Part shown: positions 4,227 to 12,447 of the stretch, in pieces
Layout of the letters: each line of letters begins with the position of its first letter
Numbering within the stretch: position 1 is the stretch's first letter
DNA from: Agrobacterium tumefaciens
GTDB taxonomy: Bacteria; Pseudomonadota; Alphaproteobacteria; Rhizobiales; Rhizobiaceae
Assembly: GCF_013318015.2 (NCBI RefSeq)
Contig: NZ_CP115841.1
Coordinates: 1,302,001-1,366,000 of the forward strand
Reading direction: 5' to 3'
DNA: 64,000 nucleotides
Made by a program: the position numbers and the translations under genes
Notes under the pieces: generated by a model
The model's database searches: none
What the model saw: only the letters and a program-made list of their open reading frames with translations
Told to the model about the DNA's origin: nothing

Positions 4227-4805
4227 TCAGCGAACATTCCAGAAAAGCCAGTCCGACTTTCCCTTCTGATATTTGTAGTGTCGGGAGAAATACGGGTTTA
4301 CCGCCGTCACGTATTCGAACTCGATATCCGTATTGCCCAGCAACGAAATGAGCGGGCGGTATTTGTAACGCCCCGAAATTACGATTACCGCTTCTTCGGT
4401 CTTGAAGTTTCCTTGCGTCAATATCTTGTCCCACTTCACGTTTTCGGCGTTGCCAAAAAAATTGTATGGGGCGAACTCGGTCACGGCGACCCCACCCACA
4501 AGCTTGGCGCTTCTGAGCGTCAGATCAAGCTTTTCAGATTCGAGCGGGCGCCCGGCAGCCATGACAAAGGACTTGACGCCCGTCCTGACGCGCTCCTCAA
4601 ATTCCGGGAATCGGGCCGACCAACGGGCCGTATTGTCCACAACTGTTACGAAACGGTCATAGCTCATCCAGCCCCGCCCGATTTCGATCACCATCGCCAG
4701 TACTAGAATGAGCAAAGGCATCAATAGCGCTAATTCCACCGCGGCAACGCCAGAGCGCGAACTTATCAGCGAGATGGATAGATATTTCAATCTCTTACCA
4801 ATCAT
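4227..4805 (-). CDS. TadE-like pseudopilin
   Basis: This 192-residue protein has a TadE-type N-terminus: a short basic leader, then SGVAAVELALLMPLLILVLAMVIEIG (quoted in part, residues about 16-42) as a single transmembrane helix with the conserved Glu (VEL). An extracytoplasmic domain without known catalytic motifs follows. Its start overlaps the stop of the upstream TadE-like gene by 4 bases (ATGA), indicating translational coupling. It is the last gene of the three-gene set 6599 to 4227. Proteins of this kind are processed and exported by Tad (type IVc pilus) machinery, which is not encoded nearby. The family call is firm and the role is inferred. Confidence 0.85.
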   Translation of the reverse strand: MIGKRLKYLSISLISSRSGVAAVELALLMPLLILVLAMVIEIGRGWMSYDRFVTVVDNTARWSARFPEFEERVRTGVKSFVMAAGRPLESEKLDLTLRSAKLVGGVAVTEFAPYNFFGNAENVKWDKILTQGNFKTEEAVIVISGRYKYRPLISLLGNTDIEFEYVTAVNPYFSRHYKYQKGKSDWLFWNVR

Positions 4806-5335
4806 TCCGTCACCCGAACTGCGGTGATCGCCAGAGAGAGATTTTGCAATTGCGGCTTGCTCCCGGAACTGGGAACGAGCAGATGGGTGGTGGGAAGAAT
4901 GAATTTCCAGTCATACCCCAGCGCCAGAAGATATTGCCCGGCGCCCTTGCTTGGCGCCTCGAATTTGTTCTCGACCGGAAATGTCACCGGTGTAGTAGCA
5001 AGGTTGGCATCAGCAATGGCAATGAGCGATATTTTCAGATCATCTTCAGTTGTCGCGAGCAGGAAATTCGAGGCAATAACCTTCCTGAACTCCGCCGCGG
5101 TGACGGACGTTCGGCCAGCCGCCGCCTTGCGCAGATATTCAGTCCCGGCAGTGGCCGCCGTCGACATATTGAGGCTGAAGAAAAGCACGAGACTAACTTC
5201 GATGATACCGAAGATCAGCAGGAGATAGACCGGCAAAAGCAAACCAAACTCAACGGCGGTAGCCGCACGGATATCCGTGGCAAGCGACCGGATGAGACTG
5301 GGGAAGTCACGATGCGATATCTTAAAACGAGTCAA
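4802..5335 (-). CDS. TadE-like pseudopilin
   Basis: A 177-residue protein with an N-terminal basic segment followed by ATAVEFGLLLPVYLLLIFGI at about 26-45, the TadE/TadG transmembrane signature with conserved Glu (VEF). The remaining 120 residues are predicted periplasmic. It overlaps the following gene by 4 bases and the preceding TadG-like gene by 14 bases, so the three are cotranscribed. TadE-like proteins act as minor pilins or pilus-assembly factors. No prepilin peptidase, secretin or ATPase gene lies in this window. Confidence 0.85.
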   Translation of the reverse strand: MTRFKISHRDFPSLIRSLATDIRAATAVEFGLLLPVYLLLIFGIIEVSLVLFFSLNMSTAATAGTEYLRKAAAGRTSVTAAEFRKVIASNFLLATTEDDLKISLIAIADANLATTPVTFPVENKFEAPSKGAGQYLLALGYDWKFILPTTHLLVPSSGSKPQLQNLSLAITAVRVTE

Positions 5336-6599
5336 GATAAGTGACCTCGAATGCCGTTATGATGCCACCCAGACTGTCGCTCGTTCCAGCGGCGGCGATC
5401 GACAGCTTGTACAGCGAATAAGTATCGACAGTGACCTCGTAGCTTCGGCGCTCCCATCGAATTTCATTCGCCTTCTGGCTCATCTGGATAATTTTTTTCT
5501 CTACACCCATTTGGGGCCGCAACACCTGCAGCGAAATATCGATGTCGTTCGAGCCTTCGTAACTTTGGTTTCGCCCGTTGTACCAGACCGAGATTTCGTA
5601 TTTGCCGGGATGCATTTCCACGTATTTGAAGATCGAGCTGTTGGCGTCGCGTCTTTTTTGCCCTTCCCAGTGACTGTCAAGTTCGACAGCGTAGCGGGTT
5701 GGCGGTATTCGCTCATTTTGGCCGTTGCGCATCGAGGGCGTGTTGTTCTTCTCTTCTGTAGTACACTGCTGCTCCTGCTCGGAATTCAAGGCGTCCTTGC
5801 CATCCGTTTGCGCCTTGCTGCCGTTTTTCGAATCGTTGTTTTCTTTGGGAAGAGTAGCCTGTGACTTTGGGGTGCATGTCATCCCGGCGCTTGTCTCTTT
5901 CTCCTTTTCCTGATCCCCGTAGCCCTGCCAGCCATAGTTCTTCCGGCAATCCGCATTGCTCCAATCCTGAAGTTCGATGCCCGGCCCCGTACCGCCATCC
6001 CATCCCAGTTCGGCATAGGTATAAACACCCCAGCAACCGTTGGGTGTTTTGGCGGTTCTGCCGTTTTTCAGCATACGTTCCGTGCCGTTCAGCGTCTTTT
6101 CGAAGGTGTTGTTGACGACGACCTCACCGTCATGTGGATAAGGCGGTATACCGCCACAACGATACGACAGCTGATAGTCCAGTTTTTCCGCCCCGAACAT
6201 GCCACTGAACACGGTTTTGTAGCTGAACTTTGCGTCTATATCCGTCGTCAGCCAGTCGATTTTAACATCGCGACTGACCACATTCTGTTTGGTGGAACGG
6301 ATCAGTGCGTCGAACGTGTCGAGCACGTTTTTACGGCGCACCTCATCCAGGGGTACGTTCGTGCGCGTCGGTTTTGTCGAACGCTCACAGGCCTGTGCAA
6401 CCACCCGCTTCGACTGGCTATAATAGGCCAACGCCCGGCCGCCTTCGAAAAGAAACCCGAAAAAAAGCAGGAAAACCGGCAACAGCAACGCCGTCATAAT
6501 GGCGAAACTGGCCCTTCGGTCGTGCAAAAACGCCCCGAAAATCTCCGCCAGACCGTCCAGTTTTGTCTTAAAATTCAACATTTGAAAATGCCGCTTCAT
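5322..6599 (-). CDS. TadG-like protein with a large extracytoplasmic region
   Basis: From ATG 6599 the protein has 425 residues. After a short cytoplasmic leader comes DRRASFAIMTALLLPVFLLF at about 24-43, a TadG/TadE-type membrane anchor. The middle (about 140-290) is Cys-rich (at least five Cys) and has a low-complexity hydrophilic stretch rich in Lys, Asn, Glu and Gln. The last 110 residues have alternating hydrophobic patterns (PGKYEISVWYNGR, SYEVTV, YKLSIAAAGTSDSLGG) that look like a carbohydrate-binding beta-sandwich; that reading is inference. Upstream in-frame extension to 6701 is possible, but ATG 6599 gives the proper TadG N-terminus. It is the first gene of a three-gene operon. GC content looks lower than in neighbours. 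Confidence 0.78.
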   Translation of the reverse strand: MKRHFQMLNFKTKLDGLAEIFGAFLHDRRASFAIMTALLLPVFLLFFGFLFEGGRALAYYSQSKRVVAQACERSTKPTRTNVPLDEVRRKNVLDTFDALIRSTKQNVVSRDVKIDWLTTDIDAKFSYKTVFSGMFGAEKLDYQLSYRCGGIPPYPHDGEVVVNNTFEKTLNGTERMLKNGRTAKTPNGCWGVYTYAELGWDGGTGPGIELQDWSNADCRKNYGWQGYGDQEKEKETSAGMTCTPKSQATLPKENNDSKNGSKAQTDGKDALNSEQEQQCTTEEKNNTPSMRNGQNERIPPTRYAVELDSHWEGQKRRDANSSIFKYVEMHPGKYEISVWYNGRNQSYEGSNDIDISLQVLRPQMGVEKKIIQMSQKANEIRWERRSYEVTVDTYSLYKLSIAAAGTSDSLGGIITAFEVTYLDSF

Positions 6600-7142
6600 G
6601 AAATTGGCTATCACCCGCCTTAAAATAAATCGCCCAGTTTCCCTCCACGCATCCGGACAGACACAACGCCACAGCCGGAGGGAATATTGGGGCAGCAGCA
6701 AACAAACTCAGCAAAGGCTGATGCACCGCGATCATGGCGGCACGCGGCAAATGAGCCGAACCACTTGCAAGCAAGAGATGCAAAAACTAATAACAGCCGC
6801 CGAAATACAGCGCCGACTGCGGGTTATGCTCCATTCGAAATTCTATAGTGTGGTATAAACACCAAATTTGTAAATTAATAGTCACATTTATTCCGAAAAA
6901 TATATGTAAAAACATACACTTAAATCACGTATTCATAATTTAGAATAGCTGAAGTAAACCATATAAAGACAGCGCGAAACATTGCCCTGATGGCAGGCCC
7001 GCGACGGTGCGCAAATTCCTCACAGGTGTGACGGGCATTGCCGTCTTTTGAATACGGCAAGACGGATTTGTACCTTGCCCCTGCCGCCAAGCTCGGGCAA
7101 AACAGCCCTATCCAATCACGAGACCATGCCAGGAGATAGAAT
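6600..7142. other. Intergenic region between divergent tadG-like and adhC genes
   Basis: About 540 bases with no convincing gene. A strongly AT-rich segment lies at about 6830-6960 (for example AAATTTGTAAATTAATAG), likely promoter DNA for one or both divergent units. An inverted repeat near adhC is listed separately. Confidence 0.5.
7038..7060. promoter_or_regulatory. Inverted repeat upstream of adhC
   Basis: The perfect 7-bp inverted repeat TTGCCGT-N9-ACGGCAA is centred about 94 bases before the adhC start. A partly overlapping arm pair CCGTCTT/AAGACGG shares the centre. It could be an operator or a leader hairpin. No regulator gene is adjacent. Confidence 0.4.
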
Positions 7143-8312: not shown

Positions 8313-8447
8313 TGAATTGACCGACCTTTCCGCTTACAGCCGTGCCGATTAACGGGACGGTAAATCTATCGTCGTATGCCGATATTGCGCGGTGGAGTTG
8401 AAAAATCCCTCCCTGCCCGAAACGACGCGAGATAGCGGGAGCGACCT

Positions 8448-9305
8448 CTGAGAACCGTACCGATCGACAACGGAAACCGCGTCGCTGCCGTTGCACTTCT
8501 GACGAAAGGTTTTCCGGAAAAGAGCGAGGCTTTCTGGGCGCTCGGCGTGTCCCTTATAAGCGACCATCATCAGCGGCAGGATCTCGGCACCATCGGGCAA
8601 TTGCTGATGAAGGGCGACGATGCCGTTGGCGTTCTTCTGACGATCCGAAGCCGCTTGGCCGAGACCGGCAGGACAGTCGTCAACCTGTCCAGCTGGTATG
8701 TCGAACCTTCCAGCCGCTGGTTTGCACCGCGTATGCTGCAAATGGCGACATCCTCCGAAGAAGACATCTTCACCGATCTCACCCCGTCTCCAGAAGCCTG
8801 CAAGCTGAACGAGAGACTGGGGTTCACAACGATAACGAATTGCACGCTTTTTTATCCCCTGCCTTTAAAGGCATTCGGCCCGGCCAGGGCGCGGCTGCGC
8901 CCGCTTGCCGAAGTGCCGCAGGGCACGCTGTCTGCCGCCACGCGCGACATGCTGGAAGATCATGCGCGTTTCGGCTGCATCGTGGCAGTCATGGAGGCGG
9001 ATGGAAGCCATTATCCGCTGGTGTTTTTAAAAACCATAACCAAAAGGCTGCCCTCCGCCCGCCTCATCTATTGCGAGGACAGGCAAGTCGCCCAGAGGCA
9101 CATTTCGGCAATTGCCCGCCATCTTCTTGGCAAAGGCCGGCTTGCATTGACCATGGCAGCTTCCGATGAGAAGCGAGACGCCGGCGGATTTGCCATACTC
9201 AAATCCTCGCCAATACAAGTAAAGGGAGCATGGAACCCACGGTTTATTAACGAAACATATTCAGAATTGGTGTTATTGCCACCCTGGGTATTGGGACGCT
9301 CTTAA
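8448..9305 (+). CDS. GNAT-like acyltransferase-family protein, probable CTG start
   Basis: The continuous frame begins after a TAG at 8433 and gives 285 residues if it starts at CTG 8448, seven bases after GGGAG (8437-8441). It would begin RTVPIDNGNRVAAVALLTKGF. The first standard start is GTG 8547, which would delete about 33 residues that read as the first strand and helix of an acetyltransferase. The N-terminal half has GNAT-like features, including KLNERLGFTTITN at about 124-136, the helix-strand motif typical of GNAT C-termini. The last 110 residues are unassigned. It stands 88 bases before the ACP gene and probably belongs to the same pathway. Substrate unknown. Confidence 0.68.
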   Translation: MRTVPIDNGNRVAAVALLTKGFPEKSEAFWALGVSLISDHHQRQDLGTIGQLLMKGDDAVGVLLTIRSRLAETGRTVVNLSSWYVEPSSRWFAPRMLQMATSSEEDIFTDLTPSPEACKLNERLGFTTITNCTLFYPLPLKAFGPARARLRPLAEVPQGTLSAATRDMLEDHARFGCIVAVMEADGSHYPLVFLKTITKRLPSARLIYCEDRQVAQRHISAIARHLLGKGRLALTMAASDEKRDAGGFAILKSSPIQVKGAWNPRFINETYSELVLLPPWVLGRS

Positions 9306-9393
9306 AAGACGCGCGCTTAAACCTTGCCTGAAAAGAAGAAAATGCGCTTCGGCCGAGACTAGTCCCGACTGCGCGAACGAGCGGAGAATAAGC

Positions 9394-9657
9394 ATGCTTT
9401 CAGCGAAACCCAGGGAAGTCGATGTCTCCGAGACCATCTATTCCTACCTCTCGCAGCGTTTCCCGGCTCATGCACCGTTTTCCGCAGATACGCAATTGCT
9501 CGAAGGCGGCGCGATCGATTCGCTCGGTTTTCTCGAACTGATGATCTTTCTCGGCGAAGGTTTCGGCATCGTTCTCAATGATGAACATTTCACCCCGGAA
9601 AATCTCAGCACGCCGGCCGATCTGATTGCCTTCGTCACGCAGGAACGGCGCAGATGA
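9394..9657 (+). CDS. Acyl carrier protein (stand-alone PCP/ACP)
   Basis: An 87-residue acidic four-helix carrier protein. The phosphopantetheine attachment motif DSLGF is at about residues 46-50 (Ser47), preceded by LLEGGAI as in DltC/PCP-type carriers. GGAG upstream gives a good RBS for ATG 9394. Its TGA overlaps the ATG of the ligase gene (ATGA), so the two are translationally coupled. This is not the fatty acid synthesis AcpP, whose helix II sequence differs. It most likely carries an amino acid or acyl group activated by the next gene product. Confidence 0.88.
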   Translation: MLSAKPREVDVSETIYSYLSQRFPAHAPFSADTQLLEGGAIDSLGFLELMIFLGEGFGIVLNDEHFTPENLSTPADLIAFVTQERRR

Positions 9658-11186
9658 CAACCCACATCCTGCTGCACCACCTGCTCACCGCGCGGGCGGA
9701 AAGCGGCGATGAGGCGCTTGTCTACAAAGAAAAATCACTGAGCTATCGCGAATTTTCCGAAGCGGCCGCACGTTGTGCGGCGGCATTGCAGGAGGCCGGA
9801 ACGGAGCGCGGCGACCGTGTCGTCATCTTCCTGCCGCGCGGCATCGAGGAATGCTGGTCGATCTTCGGCGTGAGCATGGCTTCCTGCGTCTTCGTGCCGG
9901 TCAACGCGCTTTTGAAGGCGCAGCAAATCCGCCATATCGTCGCGGATTGCGGCGCAAAAATCGTTATCAGCAGTGCTACGATGATGGATGAGCTGAACGC
10001 GGCTGTGGAAGACCTGCCCGAGGTCACTGTACTGCTGGCGGAACAAATCGACCGCCGCCCGCCCGTGCCTGCCAAAGTCTCCCCATCAATTGGCGAGGAC
10101 CTTGCAGCAATCCTCTACACATCCGGCTCCACCGGCTCGCCCAAGGGCGTGATGCTGTCGCACCGTAATCTTCTGGCCGGAGCGCGCATCGTGCGCACCT
10201 ATCTGGAGATCACCGGAAAAGACCGCCTTCTCTCCATTTTGCCCTTCAGTTTCGATTACGGCCTGAACCAGTTGCTGACGGCGGTTGAACAGGGTGCGAC
10301 CACTGTTATCTCCACCTTCAGGCTCGGCGACGACATTGTCAGGGACTTGCGCGACCATGCCATCACCGGGCTTGCCGGCGTACCAACTGTCTGGGCGATC
10401 CTGACGAGGGCCGCGCCGTTGCTGGCGAAAACGCCGCTGCCGCAGTTGCGATACATCACCAACTCCGGCGGACGCGTGCCGCAGGAAACCGTGAGGGCGT
10501 TGCGCGAAAAGCTGCCGGGAACGAAAATCTATCTGATGTATGGCCTGACCGAGGCCTTCCGCTCCACATTCCTGCCGCCTGATGAAATCGACCGCCGCCC
10601 GACTTCCATCGGCAAGGCTATCCCGGAATGTGAAATCTTCATCGTCACCGCCGAGGGACAGAGGGCAAAACCGGGTGAGCCCGGCATTCTCGTCCATCGC
10701 GGCCCGACCGTGTCGCTGGGTTACTGGAACCGGCCGGAAGATACCGCCAAGGTGCTGCGCCCTCACCCTTTCATTCCGGCCGAACGCGGCGGCGAGACCG
10801 TGTGTTATTCCGGCGATCTGGCGGTGGAAGACGAGGACGGCTTTTTCAGTTTCGTTGCCCGCAACGATGCGATGATCAAATCGTCAGGCTATCGCATCAG
10901 CCCGACCGAGGTGGAGGAAAGCCTGATGTCGACTGGCCTTTTCCAGCAGGTCGCCGTCATCGGCCTGCCGGACTCCTTTGCAGGCGAGAAGGTGCATGCC
11001 GTGGCAACCGCCGCCAACGAAAATATCGATGTTTCGGCAGCTCTCAAAAAAGCCGCCGAAATGCTTGCCCCCTTCATGATTCCGCGCGCCATCGAACTGG
11101 TCGACCGGCTTCCGGTCACGGCCAATGGCAAGGTGGATTACCGCGCGCTGGTGCGCGAACGGACGGACAATGGCGCCCACGGATAA
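9654..11186 (+). CDS. AMP-forming acyl/aminoacyl-ACP ligase
   Basis: This 510-residue ANL-superfamily adenylating enzyme has the P-loop-like motif LYTSGSTGSPKGVMLSHRN at about 154-172, the YMYGLTEAF motif near 293, the YSGDLAVEDEDG motif near 385, the hinge region with KSSGYRISPTEVE near 405, and the catalytic Lys in VTANGKVDY near 487. It resembles the ligases that accompany exosortase-A loci (TIGR03098-like), although no exosortase is visible here. It is coupled to the ACP gene (4-base overlap) and overlaps the decarboxylase gene by 17 bases. The likely role is ATP-dependent loading of a carboxylic or amino acid onto the ACP; the substrate is inferred, not shown. Confidence 0.88.
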   Translation: MTTHILLHHLLTARAESGDEALVYKEKSLSYREFSEAAARCAAALQEAGTERGDRVVIFLPRGIEECWSIFGVSMASCVFVPVNALLKAQQIRHIVADCGAKIVISSATMMDELNAAVEDLPEVTVLLAEQIDRRPPVPAKVSPSIGEDLAAILYTSGSTGSPKGVMLSHRNLLAGARIVRTYLEITGKDRLLSILPFSFDYGLNQLLTAVEQGATTVISTFRLGDDIVRDLRDHAITGLAGVPTVWAILTRAAPLLAKTPLPQLRYITNSGGRVPQETVRALREKLPGTKIYLMYGLTEAFRSTFLPPDEIDRRPTSIGKAIPECEIFIVTAEGQRAKPGEPGILVHRGPTVSLGYWNRPEDTAKVLRPHPFIPAERGGETVCYSGDLAVEDEDGFFSFVARNDAMIKSSGYRISPTEVEESLMSTGLFQQVAVIGLPDSFAGEKVHAVATAANENIDVSAALKKAAEMLAPFMIPRAIELVDRLPVTANGKVDYRALVRERTDNGAHG

Positions 11187-12447
11187 ACCCCAAAGCCACG
11201 GCCCTGCCCTTGCCGCCGCGCAATTCGCAGTCGACGAAAACGATCTTGTCATCGGTGGCCGTGCCGTGCGCGATATCGTCGCTGAGACCGGAACGCCGTG
11301 CTTCCTCTATGACGCGAGCGCCATGCGCCGCGCCTATCGCGATCTCGCAACCGCGCTCAGTGGTTTTGCCGATATCTTTTATTCGGTGAAAGCCAATCCC
11401 CTGCCCGCCATCATCTCGCTTTTCCGTGAAGAAGGCGCTGGCGCGGAAATCGCCTCCGTCGGTGAATATCGCGCCGCCATCAAGGCGGGCATACCGCCGG
11501 AAAATATCATCTTCGCCGGCCCCGGCAAGCGCCAGGCCGAATTGCTTGAGGTGATCGAGAGCGGCATCGGCGAAATCCATATCGAGAGCGCCGAGGAAAT
11601 TACCCGCATCGAAGCCATCGGCAAACCGGTCAAGGCCTCCATCCGCATCAATCCGGTGCCGGATGCGCAGGCAGGCGCCATGCGCATGGGTGGCAAGGCC
11701 ACCGCCTTCGGTTTCGACGAGGAAGAACTCGAAAACGTCCTACCGCTGTTCAGGGACATCAGGCATATCAATCTCGTCGGTGTCCATATTTACGGTGGCA
11801 CGCAAATCCTCGATGCCGACATGCTTGTCTCCCAATGGAGACACTCCATTTTGCTTGCCGCACGCATGGCCGAAATGCTCGGCAGGCCACTTGAAACCAT
11901 CGATCTCGGCGGCGGTCTCGGCATCCCCTATTTCGCCGGGGAGACGCCGCTCGATCTTGCAGCGGTCAGTGCCGCCATTCCCGACCTCAAGGCCTTGGTG
12001 CAGGCACATCCGCTGATCGCCGATGCCCATATCATTGTCGAACCCGGCCGCTTCCTCGCCGGTCCCGGCGGCATCTATGTGGCGGAAGTCAATTCGGTAA
12101 AGACCTCGCGCGGCACCACCTTCGTGGTGACGGATGGTGGCATGCATCACCATCTGGCAGCCTCCGGCAATCTCGGCCAGATCGTCAAGCGTAACTACCC
12201 CATCGTCGCACCGGCCATGATGCAGGCAGACTATGAGGAAACGGCAACTATCGTCGGCCCGCTCTGCACACCGCTCGACACCCTGGCCCGCAATGCGGCC
12301 CTGCCGAAGCTGAAGGCTGGTGATCTCCTGGCAATCCTGCAATCGGGCGCCTATGGCGCCACCGCCAGCCCTTCGGGTTTTCTCAGCCATCCGGCTGCGA
12401 AGGAAGTGCTGGTGGAGAATGGTGCGTTTGAGGTGATAGCGCGCTGA
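11170..12447 (+). CDS. Fold-III PLP-dependent decarboxylase (ornithine/diaminopimelate decarboxylase family)
   Basis: This 425-residue alanine-racemase-fold decarboxylase has the PLP lysine in FYSVKANPLPAI (Lys74), the Gly-rich phosphate-binding loop DLGGGLGIPYF near 242, EPGRFLAGPGG near 295, the Cys of GPLCTPLD (substrate-side) near 365 and the GAYGATASPSGF motif near 395. ATG 11170 lies inside the end of the ligase gene; an in-frame ATG at 11125 would overlap it further. Family relatives include exosortase-associated TIGR03099 proteins and BtrK, which decarboxylates a carrier-bound amino acid. Coupling with an ACP and a ligase suggests the same chemistry here. It is probably not LysA. Confidence 0.88.
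   Translation: MAPTDKPQSHGPALAAAQFAVDENDLVIGGRAVRDIVAETGTPCFLYDASAMRRAYRDLATALSGFADIFYSVKANPLPAIISLFREEGAGAEIASVGEYRAAIKAGIPPENIIFAGPGKRQAELLEVIESGIGEIHIESAEEITRIEAIGKPVKASIRINPVPDAQAGAMRMGGKATAFGFDEEELENVLPLFRDIRHINLVGVHIYGGTQILDADMLVSQWRHSILLAARMAEMLGRPLETIDLGGGLGIPYFAGETPLDLAAVSAAIPDLKALVQAHPLIADAHIIVEPGRFLAGPGGIYVAEVNSVKTSRGTTFVVTDGGMHHHLAASGNLGQIVKRNYPIVAPAMMQADYEETATIVGPLCTPLDTLARNAALPKLKAGDLLAILQSGAYGATASPSGFLSHPAAKEVLVENGAFEVIAR

Follow-up and report, generated by a model that had tools for sequence, protein, structure and literature searches.

A stand-alone four-gene carrier-protein cassette in Agrobacterium tumefaciens with a predicted role in on-carrier decarboxylation and transfer of a beta-amino-acyl group

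The 64,000-nucleotide stretch of Agrobacterium tumefaciens DNA analysed here (the window; contig NZ_CP115841.1 of assembly GCF_013318015.2, positions 1,302,001 to 1,366,000) contains four consecutive genes for a tandem GNAT protein, a carrier protein, an adenosine monophosphate (AMP)-forming ligase and a fold-III pyridoxal 5′-phosphate (PLP) decarboxylase, which we propose form a self-contained module that loads aspartate onto the carrier through its side chain, decarboxylates it there and passes on the resulting beta-alanyl group. Ser43 of the carrier would be pantetheinylated, and the ligase would adenylate an acidic amino acid, L-aspartate being the likeliest, at its side-chain carboxyl, with Asp201 holding the alpha-amino group and Ser271 and Arg303 holding the alpha-carboxyl. 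Loading of the carrier would give an isoaspartyl-type thioester, from which the BtrK-like PLP enzyme would strip the free alpha-carboxyl to leave beta-alanyl-carrier; the GNAT would then take this amino-acyl-carrier as donor and place beta-alanyl on an acceptor, at an amine or a hydroxyl. Sequence comparison establishes the parts, the pocket residues, the kinship of the enzymes and their co-conservation, and from it we infer the identity of the substrate and the direction of the GNAT step. Loading and decarboxylation on the carrier are likely on these grounds, and tethered decarboxylation by itself is held with greater confidence than the complete scheme, which we favour on balance, our confidence in it being slightly lowered because genomes in a class-wide sample often lack the GNAT gene. 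The chemistry is already known from antibiotic pathways; the new part is the stand-alone four-gene package, of which a search of open-licence PubMed Central (PMC) papers found no description.

The ligase pocket predicts loading via the side-chain carboxyl, with the alpha-amino and alpha-carboxyl groups left free. When only the pocket subdomain was searched against solved structures, the top matches were 3wv4 and 3wvn (91 bits; runner-up 63), which together with 3wv5 we take to be VinN, an assignment that fits a constant offset between the two proteins. Residues Asp230, Ser299 and Arg331 of VinN are named for recognition of the alpha-amino and alpha-carboxyl groups (PMC7756342, in excerpt), and this one offset (16) puts all three on Asp201, Ser271 and Arg303 of the window ligase, as in a side-chain-carboxyl ligase of the VinN type. 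Asp, Ser or Thr, and Arg occur together in all 74 ligases aligned; for residue counts, ligases of at most 400 aa (4 of 78) and decarboxylases of at most 380 aa (3 of 81) had been dropped. Among the 19 AMP-binding places of the window genome (6.0 Mb, 6 contigs; closest named relatives Agrobacterium), 16 could be aligned at the triad, the window's included, and none of the other 15 has all three residues, the second position being partly gapped in one (L118). The next closest ligase of this genome to the family profile (L117, G000:C2:1540884-1541960; 440 bits) keeps the Arg, with Gly replacing Asp and Ala replacing Ser; its substrate is perhaps a carboxylate lacking an amino group. Several AMP-binding modules resembling those of nonribosomal peptide synthetases (NRPSs) lie on contig C4 (84591-142774) of the same genome, the longest of their open frames reaching 3711 aa. 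The Asp-Ser of the carrier recurs in all 60 carriers aligned; the window carrier's best NCBIfam match is AmcB (44.5 bits, cut-off 80), and PF00550 gives 18.4 bits (cut-off 20.8). From the precedents of VinN/VinL/VinO and BolO/BolC/BolN, compared below, we infer conversion of aspartate to beta-alanyl-carrier. The initial annotation had suggested that the ligase loads an amino acid on the carrier and that a tethered amine results; carrier loading stands, whereas the pocket points to a beta- (or gamma-) amino-acyl thioester rather than a free amine.

Among solved structures, the decarboxylase is closest to BtrK (2j66/7ru7, 278 bits), with a gap of 93 bits to the next, a diaminopimelate decarboxylase (DAPDC, 185 bits). 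The motifs M-HHH and GPLCTPxD are common to BtrK and the decarboxylase family and invariant in 78 of 78 members (those longer than 380 aa, of 81 relatives); three plasmid copies have MNHH instead of MHHH. The Cys of GPLCTPxD is presumably catalytic, and the residue after it is Thr in 78 of 78, as in BtrK, and Glu at the same place in the aligned DAPDC. The lysine of SVKANP we take to be the PLP lysine of this fold. The enzyme therefore groups with the BtrK-type decarboxylases, and the carrier-tethered decarboxylation put forward earlier is well supported by this likeness together with the VinN triad and the conserved gene set.

The GNAT protein matches no Pfam or NCBIfam family by itself; Pfam gave nothing for six of seven relatives and Acetyltransf_1 for the distant L092 member. 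Its AlphaFold2 model (predicted local distance difference test score 92.6, predicted template modelling score 0.89) and its Foldseek neighbours, Eis-type tandem GNATs such as 3n7z and Eis (template modelling score about 0.5), place it in the GNAT superfamily by fold; a family profile found nothing credible among the sequences of solved structures (best E 0.19). The acyl-coenzyme A (CoA) loop motif of GNATs is Q/R-x-x-G-x-G/A. This loop is degraded in the cassette family, where over 28 aligned rows R89 is kept in 27, the next motif position is Gly in one and the last is Arg in 19. Twelve of 15 places with a GNAT relative were inspected (the window's own genome, G446 and G476 being set aside); they lack the cassette decarboxylase, and six of them (L135-L140) have an AMP ligase and/or a carrier nearby. 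At L135, the GNAT gene directly follows one whose protein matches Bll0957, amino acid--[acyl-carrier-protein] ligase 1 (714 bits), with a carrier nearby (162 bits), and this unnamed GNAT family is found with three kinds of carrier-loading enzyme. Because half of the non-cassette relatives inspected lie near or are fused with a ligase or carrier, and do so without a decarboxylase, use of the carrier-bound amino-acyl group as donor is more likely than the acylation of a tethered amine that had been suggested for the GNAT. An acyl-CoA dehydrogenase-like gene also lies near the GNAT, the Bll0957-type ligase and the carrier at L135:3117-6916. At L140:551-3853, ligase, carrier and GNAT are naturally fused in one protein of 1101 aa.

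The four genes are co-directional and in a row, as first described, and the overlaps are borne out: 4 nt between carrier and ligase (ATGA, 9654-9657) and 17 nt between ligase and decarboxylase (11170-11186; Table 1). The GNAT reading frame has no ATG, GTG or TTG from the upstream stop to position 8547. The CTG at 8448 is very likely its start, because the aligned starts of the Agrobacterium group are CTG (12 of 14 rows) or GTG (2 of 14) and because the family residues L17, P22 and W29, invariant or nearly so, are encoded ahead of 8547, the next possible start. This conserved non-canonical start (8448-8450) may keep expression of the transferase low. Purifying selection acts on all four genes, with ratios of nonsynonymous to synonymous substitution of 0.09-0.26 in nine pairs; the ratio is undefined for the GNAT and carrier genes in the near-identical pair with A. 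tumefaciens CNPSo 675 (L036), whose decarboxylase is 97% identical to that of the window.

Table 1. Features of the cassette, in window coordinates
Feature	Position	Strand	Basis
Shine-Dalgarno-like GGGAG, 6 nt ahead of the CTG start	8437..8441	+	Sequence; start regions of relatives
GNAT-fold transferase (tandem GNAT, 285 aa), CTG start	8448..9305	+	Family alignment, AlphaFold2, Foldseek
Stand-alone carrier protein (87 aa), phosphopantetheine Ser43	9394..9657	+	NCBIfam, Pfam, Asp-Ser conservation
Carrier Ser43 codon (GAIDSLGF)	9520..9522	+	Sequence, family alignment
Predicted AMP-forming amino acid:carrier-protein ligase (510 aa), VinN-like pocket	9654..11186	+	Profiles, alignments
Ligase Asp201 (VinN Asp230 position, alpha-amino)	10254..10256	+	Alignment; 74/74 ligases
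Ligase Ser271 (VinN Ser299 position, alpha-carboxyl)	10464..10466	+	Alignment; of 74 ligases, 67 Ser and 7 Thr
Ligase Arg303 (VinN Arg331 position, alpha-carboxyl)	10560..10562	+	Alignment; 74/74 ligases
Predicted fold-III PLP decarboxylase (425 aa), BtrK-like	11170..12447	+	Profiles, solved-structure search, alignment
Presumed PLP lysine codon (SVKANP)	11389..11391	+	Lys in 78/78
Cys of GPLCTPxD, presumed catalytic	12265..12267	+	Next residue Thr as in BtrK, Glu in aligned DAPDC

In a survey of 81 loci, namely the window and the best 80 of 165, a set skewed to close relatives, 33 have all four genes in the same order (31 by script; L060 and L064 by reading). They come from Agrobacterium, Devosia, Reyranella, Pseudolabrys, other Hyphomicrobiales, Henriciella, an Acidobacteria bin and an Actinomycetes bin, the last with weak GNAT and carrier scores. 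This conserved order, along with the purifying selection, argues that the cassette is more than a chance arrangement. Four loci have the GNAT and no detected carrier, and 17 are of the exosortase type or are broken or short stretches without GNAT. The decarboxylase matched at E 1e-60 in 10 of 151 genomes of a family sample, and in a class sample of 385 genomes it matched at E 1e-95 in four and the GNAT at E 1e-10 in 14. Of 39 genomes of the genus, 24 carry the decarboxylase: all 23 whose PabB matches that of the window at 82% identity or higher, none of 15 at 74% or below, and G173, which gave no PabB match at the limit used and has the cassette among other neighbours (its L035 falls inside L048). 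The 23 Agrobacterium genomes nearest by PabB identity thus all retain the cassette, whose occurrence elsewhere is scattered. In the window, 4,297 bp holding the four genes separate frmA and pabB, both of whose products score above NCBIfam cut-offs; in eight of the 15 cassette-free congeners, the frmA and pabB matches are convergent direct neighbours 87-264 bp apart, and in the other seven they are not adjacent. With frmA and pabB converging from either side of it, the cassette forms a discrete accessory unit.

Several observations weigh against the proposed scheme or parts of it. The whole ligase as query finds a gramicidin synthetase module first (319 bits) and VinN (3wvn) sixth (219 bits), so that the ranking of VinN depends on the pocket-fragment query. 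The fold neighbours of the GNAT are mostly CoA-using enzymes, and the GNAT could use acyl-CoA; six of its 12 non-cassette places (L141-L146, of which the L144 stretch is just 3 kb) gave no match to the ligase and carrier profiles of the cassette. No GNAT was detected in 27 of the 81 loci, which have carrier, ligase and decarboxylase; 23 of these are Methylobacterium or Methylorubrum, and one (L055) ends at a contig edge. Of the four decarboxylase-bearing genomes of the class sample, the window genome alone has a GNAT profile match as well, and L147 and L148, two of the three other decarboxylase places (G353 being set aside), are carrier-ligase-decarboxylase loci in which the GNAT was not found. 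The module thus occurs sporadically, and its GNAT can in part be separated from it; the view that the genes are conserved together holds for carrier, ligase and decarboxylase and fails for the GNAT in part of the relatives. The neighbours in the window are housekeeping genes (TrmFO, FrmA, PabB, Tgt, QueA and CoaD). A pooled Pfam tally of neighbours, covering 115 of 164 listed proteins at 10 loci with the matching member not resolved, is mixed (LysR 4, Polysacc_synt 3, Bac_transf 2).

As the main alternative for the substrate, the loaded amino acid might be L-glutamate, with gamma-glutamyl-carrier decarboxylated to 4-aminobutyryl-carrier as by BtrK in butirosin synthesis. That BtrK, the closest solved decarboxylase, is a glutamyl-carrier enzyme (PMC7857480, in excerpt) makes glutamate possible and counts against aspartate, but the pocket of the ligase resembles that of VinN and aligns in register with this methylaspartate enzyme, and for BolN, likewise BtrK-like, the proposed substrate is an aspartyl thioester (PMC7756342, in excerpt); the decarboxylase alone is indecisive between the two, and we consider the glutamate version improbable. 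A similarly low probability attaches to the idea that the GNAT draws on acyl-CoA to N-acylate the tethered amine, or else releases the amine, so that a small N-acyl beta-amino acid results. The nearness of its fold to CoA-using tandem GNATs would suit such a role, as would vicenistatin synthesis, in which a tethered amine is aminoacylated ahead of further use (PMC11284099, in excerpt); its degraded CoA loop and the relatives near or fused to ligase and carrier where no decarboxylase is present, one of them beside an amino acid–carrier ligase, speak for donor-side transfer instead.

Two further explanations were rejected. The cassette could be taken as a substitute for panD, supplying free beta-alanine for pantothenate, since a PanD match is missing from the window genome and from 31 of 38 other genomes of the genus. 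All seven PanD-bearing congeners also carry the cassette decarboxylase, however, and 15 of 39 genomes have neither, which is the wrong pattern for a replacement; nor does the cassette include a thioesterase gene, and such a role is very unlikely. Hardly any weight can be given to the notion of an ordinary diaminopimelate or ornithine decarboxylase set by chance beside an unrelated CoA ligase. The decarboxylase does score 276.2 bits with the lysA model TIGR01048, but this is under the curated cut-off of 297.9, a separate LysA (486 bits) is encoded elsewhere in the genome, the invariant BtrK-type residues include Thr in place of the DAPDC Glu, and the gene order is conserved across genera.

For the beta-alanyl transfer favoured here, polysaccharide genes around some loci suggest a surface polysaccharide as a possible acceptor, a lead rather than a result. 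Four plasmids (three from Shinella, one from Rhizobium) carry the ligase at 67-70% identity. In the three inspected (L149, L150 and L151; match H3 being set aside), profiles confirmed the GNAT and decarboxylase, and the cassette lies amid glycosyltransferase, flippase, polysaccharide deacetylase or GumC/VpsF genes. Two Devosia cassettes (L052 and L054) have a flippase and a sugar transferase, plus glycosyltransferases or Wzy_C and deacetylase, around them. A polysaccharide deacetylase lies near the cassettes of L052, L150 and L151, and weakly of L085. These neighbours point to a surface acceptor, and the small amide product of the initial annotation found no specific support. That the acceptor is an amino sugar of such a polysaccharide, so that the module would follow the logic of D-alanylation (Dlt) with a decarboxylation added, is a tentative idea that we think may well be wrong. 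Somewhat more doubtful still is a general system of glycan amino-acylation, in which the GNAT would put aspartate-derived beta-alanyl on amino sugars of surface polysaccharides, freed by the deacetylase where needed. If it were true, the exosortase-A-associated families TIGR03098 and TIGR03099 would represent this same pair of enzymes, supplying exopolysaccharide by way of a different type of transferase, and the GNAT family would be general amino-acyl-carrier transferases serving several loading systems.

Some further features of these loci were observed. On Shinella plasmid pShin-01 (L149:12228-12911), a gene annotated in the aspartate/glutamate racemase family lies about 2.5 kb past the cassette. 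The ligase of the Rhizobium sp. CC-CFT758 plasmid (L150:6706-8480) is in three tblastn pieces with no listed gene and may be broken. A three-gene Methylobacterium version without GNAT (L061:1235-8021) lies downstream of transglutaminase/DUF2126 amidoligase and CP-ATP-grasp/alpha-E genes, and similar large neighbours cluster in further Methylobacterium loci; these were not used as candidate acceptors, L062 having different neighbours. On the minus strand of the window (4227-6701), three genes look by eye like TadE/TadG-type pilus assembly genes, for which NCBIfam gave no family.

Among known systems, VinN/VinL/VinO of vicenistatin synthesis likewise combines an AMP ligase bearing the Asp/Ser/Arg triad (PMC7756342), a stand-alone carrier and a PLP decarboxylase that acts on the loaded carrier, leaving a beta-amino-acyl thioester after the side-chain-loaded amino acid is decarboxylated, and FlvN of the fluvirucin B2 pathway recognizes aspartate (PMC11284099, in excerpt). 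There the unit primes a polyketide synthase, whereas the window has a GNAT as fourth gene and no adjacent polyketide synthase. For BolO/BolC/BolN of bolagladin, side-chain loading of aspartate and its decarboxylation by the BtrK-like BolN to beta-alanyl-acyl carrier protein are proposed, and a bolN deletion was not rescued by free beta-alanine; this set feeds an NRPS, and no GNAT partner is described in the excerpt of that paper (PMC7756342). The butirosin enzymes BtrI/BtrK provide the nearest solved relative of the window decarboxylase. Butirosin synthesis uses the ATP-grasp enzyme BtrJ as ligase and BtrH as transferase, in place of which the window cassette has an AMP ligase and a GNAT. If our proposal is correct, a well-characterized trick of antibiotic pathways, side-chain loading of aspartate followed by decarboxylation on the carrier, has been moved into a minimal stand-alone cassette.

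The nearest named families of the window ligase and decarboxylase are TIGR03098 and TIGR03099. The resemblance noted at the outset is real (569.2 and 413.6 bits), yet both scores fall under the curated cut-offs (592.35 and 478.45); the exosortase model PF09721 has no match in the genome, in line with the initial annotation, and PEP-CTERM proteins were not searched for. Membership in these exosortase-associated families was rejected on the two missed cut-offs and the lack of an exosortase match. The L114 pair scores above both cut-offs (782 and 630 bits) and carries Asp, Thr and Arg as well as CTPxD, and the similar, unscored ligases of L103-L112 and L115 have the same triad with Ser or Thr in the middle. 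At L102, a carrier-like gene and the hydrolases TIGR03101 and TIGR03100 lie upstream of the decarboxylase, with the ligase about 8 kb off on the other strand. We do not file the window pair under TIGR03098/TIGR03099 and propose that the chemistry is the same, which would offer a concrete function for two families named merely as hypothetical equivalogs, and for the unnamed GNAT family. The Bll0957-type locus (L135) shares with the cassette a GNAT of this family right after a ligase, with a carrier nearby, but its ligase is class-II tRNA-synthetase-like and the stretch has no cassette decarboxylase. The Dlt system, too, has an AMP ligase that loads an amino acid on a small carrier. The window proteins score well below its cut-offs (DltA 184.4 against 559.85 bits, DltC 23.3 against 68; DltB and DltD were not searched for), and where Dlt has DltB/DltD, the cassette has a decarboxylase and a GNAT.

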